Notes under the pieces: generated by a model
What the model saw: the letters and a program-made list of their open reading frames with translations, nothing else
The model's database searches: none
Told to the model about the DNA's origin: nothing
Origin: Elusimicrobia bacterium GWB2_63_16
GTDB taxonomy: Bacteria; Elusimicrobiota; Elusimicrobia; Elusimicrobiales; UBA9959
Length of the DNA stretch: 37,443 bases
Direction of reading: 5' to 3'
NCBI GenBank assembly: GCA_001799715.1
Contig: MGTZ01000021.1
Coordinates: 1 to 37,443, forward strand
In this document: positions 6,161-13,156 of the stretch, one piece after another
Layout: each line of letters opens with the position of its first letter
How positions within the stretch are numbered: position 1 is the stretch's first letter
Program-made: the position numbers and the translations under genes

Positions 6161-7117
6161 TTACATGGCTTCGATAGTGGGGGTCTTGTCCTTCTTGACG
6201 AAGTTGTCCTTGGAGATGGCGCCCACGCGCTTGAAGCCCCATTTCAGGAAGTACTTCTTGGCGCCGCGGTCGTCGCCGTCGCGGTAGGTGCCGTCCTCGT
6301 CGGCAGCCTTCTCGAGGTCCTTCTCGTCGAAGGTCATCGTGTAGCCCTCGGCGGCGTCGAAGGTGAATTCCTTGGAGCCCTTGTAGCCGTTGAAGATCCA
6401 GGCGCCGTCGCGGTAGAGGTCGATCTTTATCGCCACCTTTTCGCCGGCGTATTCCTTGGCCCAGCGGTCGTTGACCTTGAAGGTGAACTTGCCGCCCGCG
6501 TAGGAGAAGTCGCCGTAGTTGAGGCCGTTCTCGTCGGCTTTCATCGCTATCTTGTACTGGGGGGCCAGCTCGAACAGCGTGTCATAATTGCCCTCGCGGC
6601 GGGCGGTGTACTTATAGGCAGCGGCGTTGACGTACAGGTCCAGCCAGGGGCCCTGCATGCAGATCTCGAAGCTCTCGCGCTCCCAGGGCAGCAGCTTGCG
6701 GGGGTTGACCTTGATCTGGCCGGTCTGGGTCCAGGTCATGCCGGGGCGCTCGTAGCAGTACTGCTGCGGCACCATGTGGCACTGCTGCTGGGCCACCTGC
6801 GTATTGTTGGGGCCGGGCACCATCACGGTGTGGCACTGCTGCACCATCTGCGTGTGGCAGACGGTCTCGTATTCGGTGCTGCGCAGGTAAACCCTCTCGC
6901 TGACCAGCTCCTTGTCGCTGGGGCCGAAAGAGAAGCGGGCGCAGTCGCGGCTGTAATGGCCGAACTTGGGCGCCGGGGCGGCGGGTACTGCCAGGTCCGC
7001 GTTGACGGCCTGGGAAACAAAGTCCTTAACGTTGACGCCCTTGTCGAAATTCACCTGGGCGTTGGCCGCGGCGACAAAGCCCGTTATCACGAGCGCCGCG
7101 AATATAGCTTTCTTCAT
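6161..7117 (-). CDS. Secreted protein of unknown function with CH-rich segment
   Basis: This 318-aa protein starts with a clear signal peptide (MKKAIFAALVITGFVAAANA, cleavage predicted after A-N-A near residue 20). A lineage-specific-looking domain follows. Residues about 85-122 are rich in Cys, His, Gln and Val, with the motif C-H-(T/M) three times (VCHTQMVQQCHTVMVP, then QQQCHMVPQQYCY). There is no CxxCH, so it is not a c-type cytochrome. The C-terminal half is mixed beta-strand-like sequence with many Lys, Asp and aromatic residues. It is probably periplasmic or exported. A strong Shine-Dalgarno GGAGGAAA at 7123-7130 supports the start. It appears to be a single-gene transcript bounded by terminators at both ends. 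I do not recognise the family. Confidence 0.85.
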   Translation of the reverse strand: MKKAIFAALVITGFVAAANAQVNFDKGVNVKDFVSQAVNADLAVPAAPAPKFGHYSRDCARFSFGPSDKELVSERVYLRSTEYETVCHTQMVQQCHTVMVPGPNNTQVAQQQCHMVPQQYCYERPGMTWTQTGQIKVNPRKLLPWERESFEICMQGPWLDLYVNAAAYKYTARREGNYDTLFELAPQYKIAMKADENGLNYGDFSYAGGKFTFKVNDRWAKEYAGEKVAIKIDLYRDGAWIFNGYKGSKEFTFDAAEGYTMTFDEKDLEKAADEDGTYRDGDDRGAKKYFLKWGFKRVGAISKDNFVKKDKTPTIEAM

Positions 7118-7205: not shown

Positions 7206-7478
7206 CTAGGACACCTTCACTTCCTTGCCTATCCAGATGAAGGCCGAGGGCAGCACGATGCACTGGCAGTGCGAGCTGAGAATGGAATTGTACTCGGGCA
7301 TGATGTTGACGATGCCGTTGCTCCAGGAGACGTAGCGTATATGCTCGGCGTCTATCCACTCGTAGACGCGCGGCCCCACCCGCGGCATCATCGTCCACAC
7401 CACCGCCTTGTCCCACGGTATCTCGTTGGCGTCCGACGAAAACTTTATCTCCGGTATTTTTGCTGCAAGCGAGTCCAT
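7206..7478 (-). CDS. Small protein of unknown function, last gene of the operon
   Basis: This 90-aa protein has no signal peptide or clear membrane span and is rich in Trp, Ile and Val. It contains one CxC pair (SSHCQCIVLPSAF). A perfect AGGAGGAT at 7481-7488, 2 nt upstream of the ATG and overlapping the stop codon of the preceding gene, strongly supports translation. I do not recognise the family. Being the last gene of a membrane/signalling operon suggests an accessory cytoplasmic factor, but that is inference only. Confidence 0.7.
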   Translation of the reverse strand: MDSLAAKIPEIKFSSDANEIPWDKAVVWTMMPRVGPRVYEWIDAEHIRYVSWSNGIVNIMPEYNSILSSHCQCIVLPSAFIWIGKEVKVS

Positions 7479-7486
7479 GTATCCTC

Positions 7487-7684
7487 CTATTCTTTGCGGC
7501 GGCGCGCCGCGGCCGTCCTGCGCAGCGCCTCCGCCATCGCGGCAAGCACCGGCAGGGTTATCAGGCCCAGCCGCGGCAGGCGCGGGTCCCCGGTCATGAA
7601 GGCCGCCAGCAGGCCGGCGTACAGCCAGTAACCCAGGAAGGCCAGCATCGGCAGATAATCAGTCCAGTTGTCTTTCCTTTCCAC
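7487..7684 (-). CDS. Small two-TM membrane protein
   Basis: This 65-aa protein has two hydrophobic segments (about 10-30 and 40-53) and a very basic C-terminal tail (RRTAAARRRKE), so the C-terminus should be cytoplasmic. Its ATG overlaps the stop of the CruF-like gene by one base and its stop lies within the ribosome-binding site of the next gene, a tight coupling that argues it is real. No family is recognised. Confidence 0.65.
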   Translation of the reverse strand: MERKDNWTDYLPMLAFLGYWLYAGLLAAFMTGDPRLPRLGLITLPVLAAMAEALRRTAAARRRKE

Positions 7685-8517
7685 TATATCCCCCAGAGCG
7701 TTAGGTTGACCGGCGTCTTTATGAACTTCAGCGCCAGCGCGCCGTAAACCAGGAAACCGGCCAGCAGGGCCGCCTCCAGGCCTATCAGCGTCAGAAAGAA
7801 GCGCCTGGCGGCCTTGGCGGGCCCCAACCGCTCAAGCAGGCCCGGCAGCCCGTCGAAAACCAGCGCGAACAGGAAGACCAGCATGAACCAGCCCGCGAAA
7901 TTGGTCAGCGGAATGGAAAGCACCCGCACCGGCTCGTTGGTAAGCCAGACCCAAGACCGCCAGGCCGGGTGCACCTGCACGGGGTCCAGCCACAGGTCGA
8001 AGTTCATCGCGAGAAAGCCGCCCAGCGCCGCCCGCGCGGCTATGCCCCTGCCGCGCAGCAGCAGGTTGGAGACGTGCACGCAGGAGTAGGCTATGAAGAA
8101 CCAGCCCAGGCAGATGTAGACCGGTATCTCGAACCACCAGAGGCCCCCGCGCGTGAAGTAGTAGGTGCCGGCCCCGGAACCCAGCTCCGGCGAGGCCGCC
8201 GCCAGCAGGTGCATGTAACGCCCGATGAAGATCCAGACGTTCTCCTCCAGGCCGGTAAAGAAGAAGGAACCGGCAAGGAACATGACCGCGAGGTACGGCC
8301 CCAGCCGGCGCCAGGCGTGCACGAAACAGAGCCCCGCCAGCAGCAACGGCACCAGGTCCAGCAGGAATATCGAGAACAGGCCGGTGTGCGGCACCCCGGC
8401 GTTGGACGGGACGTCCAACACGCCGGGGAAGGCGTGGTGCAGCACTGTGGAGGCGAGCACCGTGACTCCGAGCAGCGCGGCTACGGCCAGGAGCGTCCTC
8501 TTTTCGGCGGTTTCCAT
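7684..8517 (-). CDS. Carotenoid biosynthesis protein, CruF-like (DUF422 family)
   Basis: This 277-aa integral membrane protein has about seven hydrophobic segments. The central part carries the family-like signature FDLWLDPVQVHPAWRSWVW and, shortly after, IPLTNFAGWFMLVFLF, resembling the D-P-x-V...W-x-W and P-L-(S/T)-N-F-x-G-W motifs of CruF carotenoid hydratases. Members known elsewhere hydrate the terminal double bond of acyclic or monocyclic carotenoids. An exact reaction cannot be deduced here, since no phytoene synthase or desaturase gene is in the window. The start lies 4 nt after the porin stop. It sits in the same operon as four lycopene-cyclase-like proteins, which supports an isoprenoid substrate. 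Confidence 0.75.
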   Translation of the reverse strand: METAEKRTLLAVAALLGVTVLASTVLHHAFPGVLDVPSNAGVPHTGLFSIFLLDLVPLLLAGLCFVHAWRRLGPYLAVMFLAGSFFFTGLEENVWIFIGRYMHLLAAASPELGSGAGTYYFTRGGLWWFEIPVYICLGWFFIAYSCVHVSNLLLRGRGIAARAALGGFLAMNFDLWLDPVQVHPAWRSWVWLTNEPVRVLSIPLTNFAGWFMLVFLFALVFDGLPGLLERLGPAKAARRFFLTLIGLEAALLAGFLVYGALALKFIKTPVNLTLWGI

Positions 8518-8521
8518 GCGG

Positions 8522-9766
8522 TCAGAAACTGTAGGCGGCCTCGCCCAGCAGAGCGAAACCGTACAGGGAATATTTCACCCCTCCGGCCGTGCGGCGGCCG
8601 TAGCCGGTCATCGCGGTCAGCGTGCCGCGCAGCGCCTCCCATTTCCTGGTCAGGCCGGCGGTCAGGCGGTGCATGGGCACATCGACGGCGGTGGAAAAGT
8701 CCACGCTCCCTTTATCCAGCGCCGGGGTGTCGAAAGCGTAGCCGAGCAGCAGGTCCGTGCTCTCGGAACGCGCCCAGACCGCGCCGGCCCTGAACTTGAA
8801 GGAGTTCTTCCAGTCGTAGGTATTCTCGTTGCTGTTTATCAGCAGGCCCGGGGTTTCGTAGACGGTCTTATTGGAGAAGCCGCTCCACCAGGTCTGCGTG
8901 AGGTCCATGGAAAGCTTAAGCGTCCGGCGCGCCTGCCAGGCCGCGCCGATGCCGGAAGTGGCCGGCTGCTTGAGCTTAAACCTGAAATCGCTCTTCTCTG
9001 CGGGCAGCACCTGCGAAGTGGCCGTGGCCGAGCCGTGCAGCATCACCCGGCTGCCGCCGCGGAACACGGCGCCGAAGGCCAGCCTCTCGCTGTGGCGGTA
9101 TTTCAGGCCCAGCACGCCCTCCAGGCCGTAGCCGTCTCCGTCCAGCTTCTGCCGCACCACGTCGGGACCGGGCATGCTGAGCAGCGCCAGCAGCGGCGAC
9201 ACCGCGAAATCGTGAGTGGCCTCGCTCTCCAGCCTGGCGTAGATCAAATTGGCGCCCGCGGAGGCGGAGAACCTCTCGCCCAGCCTCCTGGCGTAGGAGA
9301 GGTTCCACACCGCCAGGCCGGCGAAACCCTCGTAATCTATGCTGTTGTAAAAGCTCGGGGTAGGATCGCTGTCCTTGAACTTGGAACCCTGCAGCAGCGG
9401 CAGGTACAGGCCGAAGCCCAGCGCCGACTTGTCGTCCAGGGGCACGGCCGCGCCCAGCGAACCGAACAGGAAAGAGGAATTCTCGCGGGTCTTGTCGAAA
9501 GGGTTGCCGACGGGGGTGTTCAAGGAATTCCCGTCCTTCGGGCTCATTACCCCGGTCTTCAGCTCCAGGCCGGCCTCGCGGGCCTTTACGTCGGACAGGT
9601 TGGCGGGATTCCAGTAGATGGCGGTCCAGTCGGCGGCGTCGGCGATGACGGCCCCGCCGCGGGCCACGGCCGCGGCCCCCACGCCGTCGAACTCGTAGCC
9701 GGAGCAGCGCCCCTCACGCGGCAGCGCCGCGGCCAGCACCATTATGACAAGCAGGATGTTTTTCAT
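8522..9766 (-). CDS. OmpP1/FadL/TodX-family outer-membrane transporter
   Basis: This 414-aa protein has an N-terminal signal peptide (MKNILLVIMVLAAALPREGRCSG; cleavage probably just before the SGYEFDG segment). It also has the FadL-type N-terminal hatch signature ARGGAVIADAADWTAIYWNPANLS. The remainder alternates as amphipathic beta strands and ends in AAYSF, a terminal aromatic typical of outer-membrane barrels. FadL-family porins let hydrophobic compounds cross the outer membrane. Its ATG overlaps the kinase stop by four bases (ATGA). Within this operon a role in moving an isoprenoid or other lipophilic compound is plausible but inferred. Confidence 0.88.
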   Translation of the reverse strand: MKNILLVIMVLAAALPREGRCSGYEFDGVGAAAVARGGAVIADAADWTAIYWNPANLSDVKAREAGLELKTGVMSPKDGNSLNTPVGNPFDKTRENSSFLFGSLGAAVPLDDKSALGFGLYLPLLQGSKFKDSDPTPSFYNSIDYEGFAGLAVWNLSYARRLGERFSASAGANLIYARLESEATHDFAVSPLLALLSMPGPDVVRQKLDGDGYGLEGVLGLKYRHSERLAFGAVFRGGSRVMLHGSATATSQVLPAEKSDFRFKLKQPATSGIGAAWQARRTLKLSMDLTQTWWSGFSNKTVYETPGLLINSNENTYDWKNSFKFRAGAVWARSESTDLLLGYAFDTPALDKGSVDFSTAVDVPMHRLTAGLTRKWEALRGTLTAMTGYGRRTAGGVKYSLYGFALLGEAAYSF

Positions 9767-11058
9767 TTTTCCGCGAACAGCGGCAGCCTGGTTATGAACT
9801 CGGCGCCGCCGCCCCCCTTTTCCTTATATTTTATTTCGCCGCCGTTATGCGTAAGCAGATCCCTGACTATCAGCAGTCCAACGCCGGTGCCTTTCTCCTT
9901 GCTGGTATGACAATCCCGGAACAGCGTAGCGCGCGACTCCGGCGGCACGCCCGGGCCGTTGTCCCCCACCGAGATCTCCGCCCAATCGCCGTCGCGGCGC
10001 AGCCCCACCTCGATCTCCCGCTCGGCGGCCCCGGCCACGGCCTCCACCGCGTTCTTCAGCAGATTGAAATAGACCTGGCGCAGTTCCCGCAGCGAGGCCG
10101 CGACGCACAGCTCCTCCGCGTCGCGGAAATCCCTGCGGAACTTTATGCCCTTGGCGCCGGGGTAGAACACCATCAGCGTCAGCATGGTGTTCAGGAAGGA
10201 CGAGAGGCAGACTTTTTCGCGCTTGGCTTCGGCCCGGCGGCCGTAGCGCGTTATGTCGGCGAGCATGGAGGAGATCTCCTCCAGGCTGCCGCGCACCTCT
10301 TTCAGCAGGCCTTCGTCCTCCGCGGCGGCCGTCTGGTCCTTCTCCTTCAGCTCGAGGTAGCCCAACGCCGTGGCCAGAGGCGTGCGAATATCGTGCACTA
10401 TGCGGTGCGCCACCATGCCTATTTGAGAATAACTCTCCAGCTCTCCGACCTCAGCCGACAGCGCCCTGGCCTTCTGGCTCTCGCGCGCCGCGGTGGCGCG
10501 GTAACCGGCCATGACGATACGGCCGACGAAGCCGGTGATCAGCATTATCGAGGAGGTGGACAGCGTCAGCCAGAAGACCACCCACTTGTTGGCGTAGATG
10601 ATGTCGGAGGCCGAACTGTAGCTGGGAACGAAGCCGAAAGCCTCGCCCAGCGTCACCAACAGGTAGCTGGCTATGCCCATGAAAATGGTGGAATAGTTCT
10701 CCACGCCGTAGGCGGCTTCCGCCAGCATGATGGCGAAGTAGAAGAAGAGGAACGGGGAAGTGATGCCGCCGGTGAAGTGCACCATGCCGCCCAGCATGGC
10801 CAGCGACAGCACCGTCATCACGGACAGCAGCAGGAAATAGCGCTCGCGGGCCAGCCGCGTCACCACCGCGCCCGCGGCCGCGTAGGCGGCGGCCGAGGCG
10901 AGGCAGAGCCAGCCGAAACCGGCCCGGAAAGGAAAATCCGGCATCAGCCGCGCCAGCGCGAAGGTCAGCAGGCAAAGCCCCGAAGTGTAGAGCAACTGCT
11001 TGCGCAGCGCCGAGATGGAGATCAGCTCCAACCCCTGTTTGTCGCCCTTGGATATCAT
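9763..11058 (-). CDS. Six-TM sensor histidine kinase
   Basis: This 431-aa protein has an N-terminal membrane domain with six hydrophobic segments (about 22-40, 47-67, 74-95, 101-120, 123-142 and 160-185). It includes the motif FTGGITSPFLFFYF, similar to PilS/RegB-type membrane sensors. A short coiled linker leads to the H-box (RIVHDIRTPLA, phospho-acceptor H222). The N-box (FNLLKNAVEAV), G1 (VGDNGPGVP) and G2 (GTGVGLLIVRDL) boxes are intact, so it should be an active kinase. The sensor has no large periplasmic domain and therefore probably senses something within the membrane. The stand-alone receiver at 12788-13156, first gene of the operon, is the obvious partner. ATGA overlaps join it to both neighbours. 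Confidence 0.9.
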   Translation of the reverse strand: MISKGDKQGLELISISALRKQLLYTSGLCLLTFALARLMPDFPFRAGFGWLCLASAAAYAAAGAVVTRLARERYFLLLSVMTVLSLAMLGGMVHFTGGITSPFLFFYFAIMLAEAAYGVENYSTIFMGIASYLLVTLGEAFGFVPSYSSASDIIYANKWVVFWLTLSTSSIMLITGFVGRIVMAGYRATAARESQKARALSAEVGELESYSQIGMVAHRIVHDIRTPLATALGYLELKEKDQTAAAEDEGLLKEVRGSLEEISSMLADITRYGRRAEAKREKVCLSSFLNTMLTLMVFYPGAKGIKFRRDFRDAEELCVAASLRELRQVYFNLLKNAVEAVAGAAEREIEVGLRRDGDWAEISVGDNGPGVPPESRATLFRDCHTSKEKGTGVGLLIVRDLLTHNGGEIKYKEKGGGGAEFITRLPLFAEK

Positions 11059-11591
11059 CTTTTCCCCTCGAAGCTCCCTTCCCAGTAGCGCACGAAGGTC
11101 GGCGCCACCAGCATCAGCAGCGAATAACCGAACAGCAGCTCGTACGGCATGTTAAAAAGCGGGATCAGCCCCCAGTCCCACTGCAGCAGGTCCTGCCTGT
11201 AGGTCCACACGCCGCTCTTGGAGCCAAGCGTCTCGAGCGGCAGGCAGACCGCCGCGGCGCTCGCCATGTCGAAAACGAAGACCCGCTTGTCGCGCGGACG
11301 CAGCGCGGAAAGGCCCAACACTTTACAATATAATTTCTCGGCGAGCCAAGGCACCAGTGTCAGCATGACGCTCCATCCGGCCACCACGGCCAGCGGCGCG
11401 TCGCGGTAGAACGTCAGCGCGAGGTGGTAATCCCACAGCGGCTCGGTGGCTATCTCCCAGACCACGCCCACTATGGCGCCGGCCAGCAGCTCGCCGGCCA
11501 CGTTACGCCGGGCATAGCGGCGGAACAGCCACCAGGTGACGGCCGGCAGGGAGAGCCCCAGCGCCTCCAGGAAGACCAGCAGCGGGTTCAT
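11055..11591 (-). CDS. Five-TM membrane protein, paralogue 2, with degenerate lycopene-cyclase-like motif
   Basis: This 178-aa protein has about five hydrophobic segments. It is a clear paralogue of the next gene upstream; both share ATEPLWDYH, a D-K-R-V-F segment, GVW-x-Y and W-x-W-G-x-x-P-x-F-x-M-P-Y-E-x-L-F-G-Y, ending PTFVR-x-W-E. The second half (V-F-x-x-D...E-T...G-V-W...P...M-P-Y-E-L-L-F-G) follows the order of the lycopene cyclase domain, in which a G-x-W-x-(F/Y) loop is followed by P-x-E-E-x-x-(F/Y). Here P-Y-E replaces P-x-E-E. It could be a diverged cyclase subunit or a sensor-like relative; function is not established. ATGA overlaps join it to both neighbours. Confidence 0.65.
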   Translation of the reverse strand: MNPLLVFLEALGLSLPAVTWWLFRRYARRNVAGELLAGAIVGVVWEIATEPLWDYHLALTFYRDAPLAVVAGWSVMLTLVPWLAEKLYCKVLGLSALRPRDKRVFVFDMASAAAVCLPLETLGSKSGVWTYRQDLLQWDWGLIPLFNMPYELLFGYSLLMLVAPTFVRYWEGSFEGKR

Positions 11592-12109
11592 GCCTCGAAA
11601 GGCCGCTCCCAGCAGCGCACGAAGGTGGGGCCTATCAGCATCAGCAGGCAGTAGCCGAACAGCGCCTCGTACGGCATTTTAAAGAACGGCACCTCGCCCC
11701 AGCCCCAGTTCAGGATATGGTAATTGTAGTCCCAGACACCGAGCTTCAGGGCCACGGTCTCGATAGGGAAGGCGATCAGCGCGGCGCTGGTCACGTCGGT
11801 CAGGAAGACGCGCTTGTCGGTCAGGGCCGGCGTCGCGCCGAACAGCGCCTTGAAGATCTTTTCCGAGACGAAGACCACCAGCGTGAACATCACGCCCCAG
11901 CCCAGCACTATGCACGGCGGCACGTCCTTGTAGACCGTGAAGAAGAAGTGGTAGTCCCACAGCGGCTCGGTGGCGAACTCGATGAAGCAGCCGATTATAG
12001 TGCCGGCCATCAATTCTCCCAGCACGTTGCGCCGGGCGAAGCGCCTGAAGACGTACCAGGTCACCGGCACCTGCAGGTAGAACCACGCTTCCAGTATGGC
12101 GAGCTTCAT
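11588..12109 (-). CDS. Five-TM membrane protein, paralogue 1, with degenerate lycopene-cyclase-like motif
   Basis: This 173-aa protein has about five membrane segments and is homologous over its whole length to the downstream paralogue. The shared block (FATEPLWDYH, then Y-K-D-V-P, W-G-V-M-F-T-L, D-K-R-V-F, LGVWDYNYHILNWGWG, PFFKMPYEALFGY) keeps acidic residues inside predicted helices, as in membrane-embedded enzymes. A Shine-Dalgarno GGAGGAAG precedes the ATG. Tandem placement directly after two canonical lycopene-cyclase-domain genes suggests gene duplication and divergence within one fold. No assigned family is recognised. Confidence 0.65.
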   Translation of the reverse strand: MKLAILEAWFYLQVPVTWYVFRRFARRNVLGELMAGTIIGCFIEFATEPLWDYHFFFTVYKDVPPCIVLGWGVMFTLVVFVSEKIFKALFGATPALTDKRVFLTDVTSAALIAFPIETVALKLGVWDYNYHILNWGWGEVPFFKMPYEALFGYCLLMLIGPTFVRCWERPFEA

Positions 12110-12471
12110 TTCTTCCTCCCGAGCCAGTTGTCTATCGCGTGCATGAGTATGACGGTGAACATCGGCGGGAACCAGTAGTAGAGCAGCGGCTCCTCTATCG
12201 GCACGCCCCAGACGGTGGGGCCGAGCGTGCGCATGGGGTTCCAGATCCAGTGCTCGCGCAGCACCGAGAAATGACCCGCGACGAAGGCGATGGACGAGAA
12301 GGTGAGGATCATCAGGCCGGCGGCCCGCCAGTTCACGGACTCGCGGGAGGCCTTATAGAGCGGCAGCACTATGAAGAAGAACGGCAGAGTCAGCAGGACG
12401 CTGGCGGGCCATTTCTTTACGGCCGCGCCCTGGGGCTTCTTTTCTTCGGGGTTCACCGGGGCTTCAGGCAT
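12106..12471 (-). CDS. Lycopene-cyclase-domain protein (CrtYd-like subunit)
   Basis: This 121-aa protein has a hydrophilic Pro/Lys-rich N-terminus (1-20) and three membrane segments (about 22-40, 48-70 and 90-112). Between the last two is the loop WIWNPMRTLGPTVWG leading into VPIEEPLLYYW, the P-x-E-E-x-x-x-(F/Y) motif of the CrtYc/CrtYd/CarR cyclase domain. Known family members form heterodimers that cyclise the ends of lycopene. Size and adjacency to a second such gene (8-bp overlap) match a heterodimeric enzyme. GGAGGAAAA stands just before the ATG. The substrate is unproven. Confidence 0.72.
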   Translation of the reverse strand: MPEAPVNPEEKKPQGAAVKKWPASVLLTLPFFFIVLPLYKASRESVNWRAAGLMILTFSSIAFVAGHFSVLREHWIWNPMRTLGPTVWGVPIEEPLLYYWFPPMFTVILMHAIDNWLGRKK

Positions 12472-12787
12472 TTTTCCTCCCGAGCAGGCGGCCGTAGAGC
12501 AGGTAAAGCGACAGGCAGAACGGCGTGGCGCCGAACCAGTAGACGTATTCCTCTATCGGCGCTTTGCCGAACCAGATGCCGAGCAGCGGATCTATGCGCT
12601 CGGAGAAGGTCCAGGTGTCGAACTTCAGGTAGAAATACTCCATGATCACCGAGATCACGGCCATGGCCAGCGTGGTCAGCCAGTAGGAGCGCTTGATGCC
12701 CGGAGGCAGCTTGTGAAAGAAGAACAGCACGAACAGGCAGACCGGCAGCCAGAAGAGCGCGGAATAGATGATGAAGTAGAGCGGCAC
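12464..12787 (-). CDS. Lycopene-cyclase-domain protein (CrtYc-like subunit), GTG start
   Basis: This 107-aa protein has three membrane segments (about 3-23, 35-54 and 76-98). The loop TWTFSERIDPLLGIWFG leads into KAPIEEYVYWFG, the canonical P-x-E-E-(F/Y) active-site motif of CrtYc/CrtYd-type lycopene cyclases. The GTG start at 12787 directly follows the TAA of the receiver gene with no gap, and it overlaps the next gene by 8 bp. It is probably one half of a heterodimeric membrane cyclase. Crystal or activity data on this subfamily cannot be inferred from sequence. Confidence 0.75.
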   Translation of the reverse strand: MPLYFIIYSALFWLPVCLFVLFFFHKLPPGIKRSYWLTTLAMAVISVIMEYFYLKFDTWTFSERIDPLLGIWFGKAPIEEYVYWFGATPFCLSLYLLYGRLLGRKNA

Positions 12788-13156
12788 TTATTTCCCCCCG
12801 CCGGCCGCCCCGCGGGTGGCCCTGGCCGCGGCGATGGCGGCCTCCAATTCAACCATAGGCAGGCCCTTGAGCACGAAGCGGTCCGCTCCGCACCCTGCCT
12901 CCGGCTCGGTGCCGCTGAGCAGCAGCAGCGCCGTCCGGCCGTAGCGGACGTCGGAGCGGATGGCCTCGCAGAACGGCCCCGCCTCGCCGTCGGGCAGCGA
13001 GGCGTCGAGCAGTATCACGTCGGGAACGGCATGGTCGGCCAGCGAACGCGCCGCCGCCCACGTACGGCCGGAAAGGACCTCGTGGCCGCCGCCGACGAAA
13101 TAGCAGGACAGCATGTGCACCCAGGCAGCGTCGTCGTCCACGATAAGTATCCGCAT
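12788..13156 (-). CDS. Stand-alone receiver (CheY-like) protein
   Basis: This 122-aa protein is a single receiver domain without an output domain. It has the acidic cluster D7-D9, phospho-acceptor D51 (LLDASLPDG), switch S81 and conserved K97 (FVLKG). Such proteins act by protein-protein contact or as phosphate relays. It opens the ten-gene operon and probably receives phosphate from the six-TM kinase four genes downstream. A Shine-Dalgarno-like AAGGGGTG stands 5 nt before the ATG. A minus-strand TTGATA at 13191-13196 could be a -35, but its 17-nt-spaced -10 (TAACAA) overlaps the ribosome-binding site, so I do not call a promoter. Confidence 0.88.
   Translation of the reverse strand: MRILIVDDDAAWVHMLSCYFVGGGHEVLSGRTWAAARSLADHAVPDVILLDASLPDGEAGPFCEAIRSDVRYGRTALLLLSGTEPEAGCGADRFVLKGLPMVELEAAIAAARATRGAAGGGK

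Follow-up and report, generated by a model that had tools for sequence, protein, structure and literature searches.

CrtYc and CrtYd are described as two proteins or as a single one (PMC2889829). Insig partners the membrane protein Scap in a sterol-dependent manner (PMC9233655), and MvINS forms a trimer in solution (PMC7815742). The membrane kinase RegB binds ubiquinone at a GGXXNPF motif (PMC8191878 and PMC10525716). The locus described here invites comparison with each of these systems. It lies in a 37,443-nt stretch of Elusimicrobia bacterium GWB2_63_16 (contig MGTZ01000021.1, positions 1 to 37,443), called the window in what follows, and the host assembly comprises 2.87 Mb in 62 contigs and is 91% complete. 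Ten open reading frames (ORFs) are present on the minus strand at 7206-13156, as described in an earlier sequence-only reading. Their order is receiver, CrtYc-like, CrtYd-like, T1, T2, kinase, FadL, CruF-like and two small proteins. The junctions, from the first gene to the last, measure 0, -8, -4, -4, -4, -4, +4, -1 and +8 nt; all are within 8 nt, in line with the overlapping or closely spaced genes of that reading. We tentatively interpret this operon as a two-component system responding to a membrane lipid, most likely an isoprenoid, a reading that we favour while rating it somewhat short of probable.

The arrangement is conserved. Among 340 genomes of the phylum, CrtYc profile matches occur in 25, and 26 loci were mapped in these. 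Rows dropped before counting were L019 and L021 (on the contigs of L103 and L104), L018 and L020 (on the contigs of L027 and L028), the fragments in L104 and L106, and L071 and L072, which hold weak TIGR03462 matches only (genomes G026 and G024). A kinase of the operon family is present in 24 of the 26 loci (as a partial match only in L106), and a T protein in 23, with a fragment in L106. T profile matches are found in 22 of the 340 genomes, all 22 being among the 25 CrtYc carriers. One narrow scan of genome contigs with T1 gave four loci, and T1 has no match on plasmids. FadL directly follows the kinase or operon in 18/26 loci and is nearby in three more (about 7 kb off and behind a second kinase in L068 and L070, divergent in L101), which makes 21/26 overall, so that the porin link of the sequence-only reading holds for the most part. 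The CruF-like gene is an optional part because it occurs in 7/26 loci only, all within the genus of the window. The loci are spread over five families of the phylum (f1, f6, f7, f9 and f25), and the recurrence of the core order in all five indicates that the arrangement is more than chance. A search of related genomes for the gene order had been proposed earlier as a check; the cyclase-fold genes accompany the kinase in the proportion given above, and their scattering without the kinase was not found.

L106 (742-1956, genome G139) has a stop within its CrtYc match and a T fragment with stops, followed by a partial kinase match. CrtYc and CrtYd are kept in L069 (3253-3952, G010), where the 14 kb covered, out of a contig of 18.6 kb, contain no T, kinase or FadL.

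The CrtYc/CrtYd-like pair resembles the lycopene cyclases in being small membrane proteins in tandem, with P-x-E-E in both and significant profile matches below the cut-offs. TIGR03462 gives 37.4 bits for the CrtYc-like and 28.0 bits for the CrtYd-like protein (cut-off 39.4), and PF18916 gives 18.0 and 24.5 bits (cut-off 27). The TIGR03462 cut-off is passed in two genomes of 61 relatives. P-x-E-E, which we take to be a hallmark of these cyclases, is invariant in the 25 CrtYc-like and the 25 CrtYd-like proteins compared; the intact motifs noted before are confirmed. In hhalign, CrtYc is related to CrtYd at 83% and to a two-repeat protein of sister operons, introduced below, at 96%. Unlike the CrtYcd cyclases, the pair is partnered here with a kinase, T proteins and FadL, and 21 of the 25 carriers have no full-length CrtI match.

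The carotenoid pathway itself is largely missing around these genes. In the host genome, 91% complete as assembled, no full-length match to the CrtI family was found, the best being a short N-terminal one at E 2.1e-7; this bears on the earlier question of whether CrtI lies elsewhere in the genome. At a threshold of E <= 1e-15, full-length CrtI-like matches are present in four carriers, under the family cut-off in G003, G022 and G139 and over it in G151. The presence of CrtI does not track the operon, since 7/48 genomes without CrtYc (in a set of 61) also have such a match. SQS_PSY-family genes are uninformative on the operon, as they occur in 59/61 genomes searched and the host pair matches HpnD best. 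The statement that phytoene synthase is lacking is thus correct locally; genome-wide, the host has these two SQS_PSY-family genes, which stay below the HpnD cut-off. P-x-E-E proteins within complete carotenoid pathways were not found among the carriers. An ordinary carotenoid cluster is rejected, as it already was in the sequence-only reading, because a full-length CrtI-like match is present in only 4/25 carriers and in none of the host contigs.

T1 and T2 belong to no Pfam or NCBIfam family; T1 has no match at all and T2 only a weak NCBIfam stretch (E 0.005). The predicted model of T1 (pLDDT 88.5) has five long helices and short strands at 51-53 and 126-128. Its top Foldseek matches in the PDB are the entries 4xu4 and 4xu6 of MvINS, an Insig homologue from mycobacteria (probability 0.97 and 0.94, E 0.07 and 0.1, TM 0.40-0.44), the other rows among the best 50 having a probability of 0.14 or less. 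Four genomes of f6, f7 and f9 carry, between T and the kinase, a gene of about 250 codons with Lycopene_cyc matches, and three of these four two-repeat proteins exceed the Pfam cut-off. A model of the two-repeat protein leads to the same two entries (probability 1.00, E 0.015 and 0.04, TM 0.49 and 0.62), followed by the Insig chains of Scap/Insig complexes at probabilities of 0.41, 0.33 and 0.14. MvINS is the best PDB fold match for both T1 and this cyclase relative, with no match of either at E 0.001. Searches of PDB sequences returned three weak antiporter matches for T and no match for the two-repeat protein.

Support for a kinship of T with the cyclases comes from a spacing motif and the shared fold match, not from sequence profiles. 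The pattern [ED]-x8-W-x-[FYW]-x(12-18)-P-x-[ED] occurs in 33/33 T, 25/25 CrtYc-like and 24/25 CrtYd-like proteins and in 0/4 two-repeat proteins; none of the 30 kinases, 7 CruF-like or 18 FadL proteins has it. It appears in 60 of 20,000 shuffles of T2, a flattering figure because the pattern was drawn up after the alignments were seen. A T-CrtYc kinship by sequence is rejected, hhalign reaching 18.7% at best compared with the 96% and 83% given above. Profile comparisons of the kinase with T, the kinase with CrtYc, CruF with T and CruF with CrtYc found nothing. We read the matches of the structure models as moderate evidence for a cyclase fold in T and for a resemblance of this fold to Insig.

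The kinase has HisKA and HATPase_c domains, and the phosphoacceptor H222 is present in 30/30 kinases. By a simple measure of hydropathy, five of its segments exceed the threshold, not the six transmembrane segments previously assigned. Together with the linked receiver in the window, the HisKA histidine and HATPase_c domain make up a two-component system. The window receiver scores 30.2 bits against PF00072, exactly the cut-off. In L099, L100 and L101, the first gene met upstream of CrtYc on its strand encodes an HTH_17-receiver fusion (in L100, HTH_17 is slightly below cut-off and the gap to CrtYc is some 350 nt). The upstream receiver of L102 is cut by the contig end; these four loci are from families other than that of the window. 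L096 has a receiver-Trans_reg_C protein downstream, and a convergent receiver-GAF gene stands beside the kinase in L103. With the window, linked receivers are found in at least seven of the 26 loci, a lower bound because the search with the window receiver was insensitive: some receivers confirmed by Pfam had escaped it or received weak scores.

The kinase resembles the redox kinase RegB/PrrB-ActS (paired with RegA) in being a membrane kinase with GG-x-x-[N/S]-P in its membrane domain. G-G-x-x-S-P is found in 30/30 kinases of CrtYc loci and in 6/6 kinases away from cyclase genes. The motif is rejected as an operon signature, since all six non-operon kinases compared carry it. An unrooted tree of 36 kinases includes 24 operon kinases, and the others (six non-operon, four upstream, two distant) lie among these; the operon label requires 3 changes versus a shuffled mean of 10.2; the tree is suggestive only, owing to limited sampling (non-operon kinases from five genomes, a genus-derived query, 6/9 matches used). 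The three unused matches, all in G005, are partial or weak. The first kinase of L068 was excluded from the kinase alignment A5 and included in the tree.

FadL/TodX proteins form an outer-membrane transport family for hydrophobic compounds. The operon porin belongs to this family, with 68.1 bits against PF03349 (cut-off 29.7), and its ligand here would be the proposed lipid. The CruF-like protein is strongly conserved among its seven copies and matches the CruF/bisanhydrobacterioruberin hydratase profile PF04240 above cut-off (42.5 bits, cut-off 25). Unlike CruF, it is encoded by an optional gene with no carotenoid pathway around.

In the reading that we favour, the CrtYc/Yd pair and the T proteins would be Insig-like membrane proteins of the lycopene-cyclase fold, taking a hydrophobic ligand from the membrane that the FadL porin would supply or exchange. 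With its intact acids, the pair would probably still protonate or modify this ligand, and so might the CruF-like protein where it is present. The T proteins retain no more than P-x-E and may serve more as ligand-bound partners. Ligand occupancy would be relayed to the linked kinase through its membrane domain, presumably within a complex that couples the proteins physically. The kinase would then phosphorylate the linked receiver or HTH-receiver regulator, and with signals running in this direction, target genes would be regulated. The partner logic of Insig and Scap is the one proposed for the operon proteins and the kinase. Unlike in Insig, the proposed partner is a histidine kinase, the PF07281 sequence match is missing and the fold match is moderate. 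The Insig-like fold match lends some weight to isoprenoid sensing. The circuit suggested by the sequence-only reading is partly supported by the constancy of the kinase, the FadL linkage and this fold match; its ligand, its kinase coupling and any light or redox input are still putative. Further points in favour are the restriction of T to CrtYc carriers, the receivers upstream of CrtYc in four loci of other families, the position of the sampled non-operon kinases in the tree, the scarcity of CrtI and the invariant P-x-E-E. A bolder form of the idea is that CrtYcd cyclases and Insig share one fold and that the phylum has built a bacterial counterpart of Scap-Insig, in which isoprenoid-binding proteins gate a histidine kinase. 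We regard this form as rather unlikely.

Several observations weigh against a sensor. In L069 and L105, two of the 26 CrtYc loci, no kinase was found in the stretch read, and the kinase family also occurs away from the operon. No Foldseek match of T1 or of the two-repeat protein was obtained at E 0.001, and the TM values stay at 0.40-0.62. The two-repeat model, built from 4 sequences with a pLDDT of 79.1, derives from sister operons outside the window. The Insig profile PF07281 matched no operon gene in 10 genomes, its one stretch in these lying elsewhere (G000:C59, E 0.14), and it is absent from the Pfam scans of the 19 T and 4 two-repeat proteins. Comparison of T by hhalign gave first 6% with CrtYc, 1% with CrtYd and 0.2% with the two-repeat protein and, with more rows, 18.7%, 2.1% and 0.5%, which is weak to nil. 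The invariant P-x-E-E suits an enzyme no less than it suits a sensor.

This last point leads to the strongest alternative, an enzyme operon under local control, which is a serious contender and only a little less likely than the sensor. Here, the CrtYc/Yd pair would be an end-group cyclase, the CruF-like protein a hydratase and the T proteins further enzymes, with the kinase and receiver merely regulating them. The substrate would be either a carotenoid or apocarotenoid scavenged by import through FadL, or some other linear isoprenoid, for example squalene or the side chain of a quinone. P-x-E-E, invariant in all copies of both proteins (25/25 and 25/25), and FadL in or near 21/26 loci suit such an operon, whereas the T family resembles no enzyme and, CrtYd aside, no partner is as constant as the kinase. 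The CruF-like gene counts on both sides, as its product exceeds the PF04240 cut-off but is found in 7/26 loci only. The same is true of the pathway genes: the host has SQS_PSY-family genes and 4/25 carriers a full-length CrtI-like gene, yet 21/25 carriers are without the latter.

The kinase motif offers another explanation, in which a RegB-like sensor reads, through GGxxSP, a quinone made or bound by the cyclase-fold proteins. Ubiquinone binding at GGXXNPF in RegB (PMC8191878 and PMC10525716) and an NF033792 match over kinase residues 77-418 point in this direction, as does the presence of GGxxSP in all 30 and 6 kinases. Unlike in RegB, Ser replaces Asn in 36/36 kinases, no cysteine column is conserved at 90% among 30 kinases, and the NF033792 score of 61 is far below the cut-off of 350. 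The motif is also carried by kinases away from cyclase genes. We consider a RegB-like sensor improbable. Least credible is a relic of a carotenoid cluster whose upstream genes were lost, next to which the kinase and porin would stand by chance. CrtYc/Yd and CruF belong to carotenoid-type families and L106 is visibly decayed, but a core order kept over five families, a kinase in 24/26 loci and invariant motifs speak against a relic, as does the lack of CrtI in most carriers.

The genes of the operon are compiled in Table 1. The ten-gene unit of the sequence-only reading is confirmed, except that its last, 90-aa ORF is a doubtful member, because no relative of it was found in the other loci compared.

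Table 1. Genes of the operon in the window, listed from the first gene to the last.
Feature	Position	Strand	Evidence and residues
Stand-alone receiver (REC), 122 aa, without output domain	12788..13156	-	PF00072; residues D7/D8/D9, D51, S81, K97
CrtYc-like half of lycopene-cyclase-type pair, 107 aa	12464..12787	-	TIGR03462 E 2.7e-9; P77-x-E79-E80
CrtYd-like half, 121 aa	12106..12471	-	TIGR03462 E 2.4e-6, PF18916 4.2e-5; P91-x-E93-E94
T1, 173-aa membrane protein	11588..12109	-	Without Pfam/NCBIfam family; invariant residues E117-x8-W126-x-Y128 ... P146-x-E148
T2, 178 aa, T1 paralogue, 53% identical	11055..11591	-	Sequence comparison
Membrane histidine kinase	9763..11058	-	HisKA, HATPase_c; GGITSPF at residue 97; phosphoacceptor H222
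FadL/TodX-type outer-membrane transport protein	8522..9766	-	PF03349 6.6e-19
CruF-like (Caroten_synth) membrane protein, optional	7684..8517	-	PF04240 9.4e-11, above cut-off
Small protein, 65 aa, one clear hydrophobic segment	7487..7684	-	Matches no family; 3' of CruF-like gene in 7/7 loci
ORF of 90 aa, membership doubtful	7206..7478	-	Matches no family

A promoter scan remained at chance level (1 found, mean of 1.1 in shuffles). Downstream of the operon and on the same strand, a 318-aa ORF (6161-7117) has a signal peptide by eye and no Pfam match at 0.001. Within the genus of the window, many loci have a HypA-like protein and a NUBPL-type ATPase upstream in place of a receiver (by reading, with Pfam applied to the pair of L022). 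A B12-binding radical SAM protein, identified by Pfam, is located directly upstream of CrtYc in L026 (7433-8929, G014), and a similar ORF upstream in L025 was recognized by reading. Peripla_BP_2 proteins are encoded downstream in L030 and L068, the cyclase operon of L030 being placed between a NUBPL-kinase pair and the Peripla_BP_2 gene. A second kind of locus (L140, 5183-15936 on host contig C46, and L141, L142 and L143) combines HypA-like proteins, NUBPL-type ATPases and GGxxSPF kinases; it occurs in the host and also in genomes that lack the cyclase operon. Judged by reading, L141 and L143 have a TonB-type receptor nearby, and L142 and L143 have NarL-type regulators and a BtuF-like protein.

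Separately, two-component systems and CrtYcd cyclases are known; their stable union here, the T family and the proposed link to Insig were not seen among the literature matches listed, in which no title or start of an abstract describes such an operon or a cyclase-Insig fold link. To our knowledge, little is known of how bacteria sense membrane isoprenoids, and how Insig-type sterol sensing arose is an open question. Matches to CrtYc/Yd or CruF in this phylum should not be taken as a sign of carotenoid production. The operon provides a concrete system for asking whether membrane proteins with an enzyme fold have turned into lipid sensors. A bacterial counterpart of Scap-Insig, if true, would add accessory lipid receptors of a new class to two-component systems, and might connect carotenoid enzymes with eukaryotic sterol sensing in evolution.

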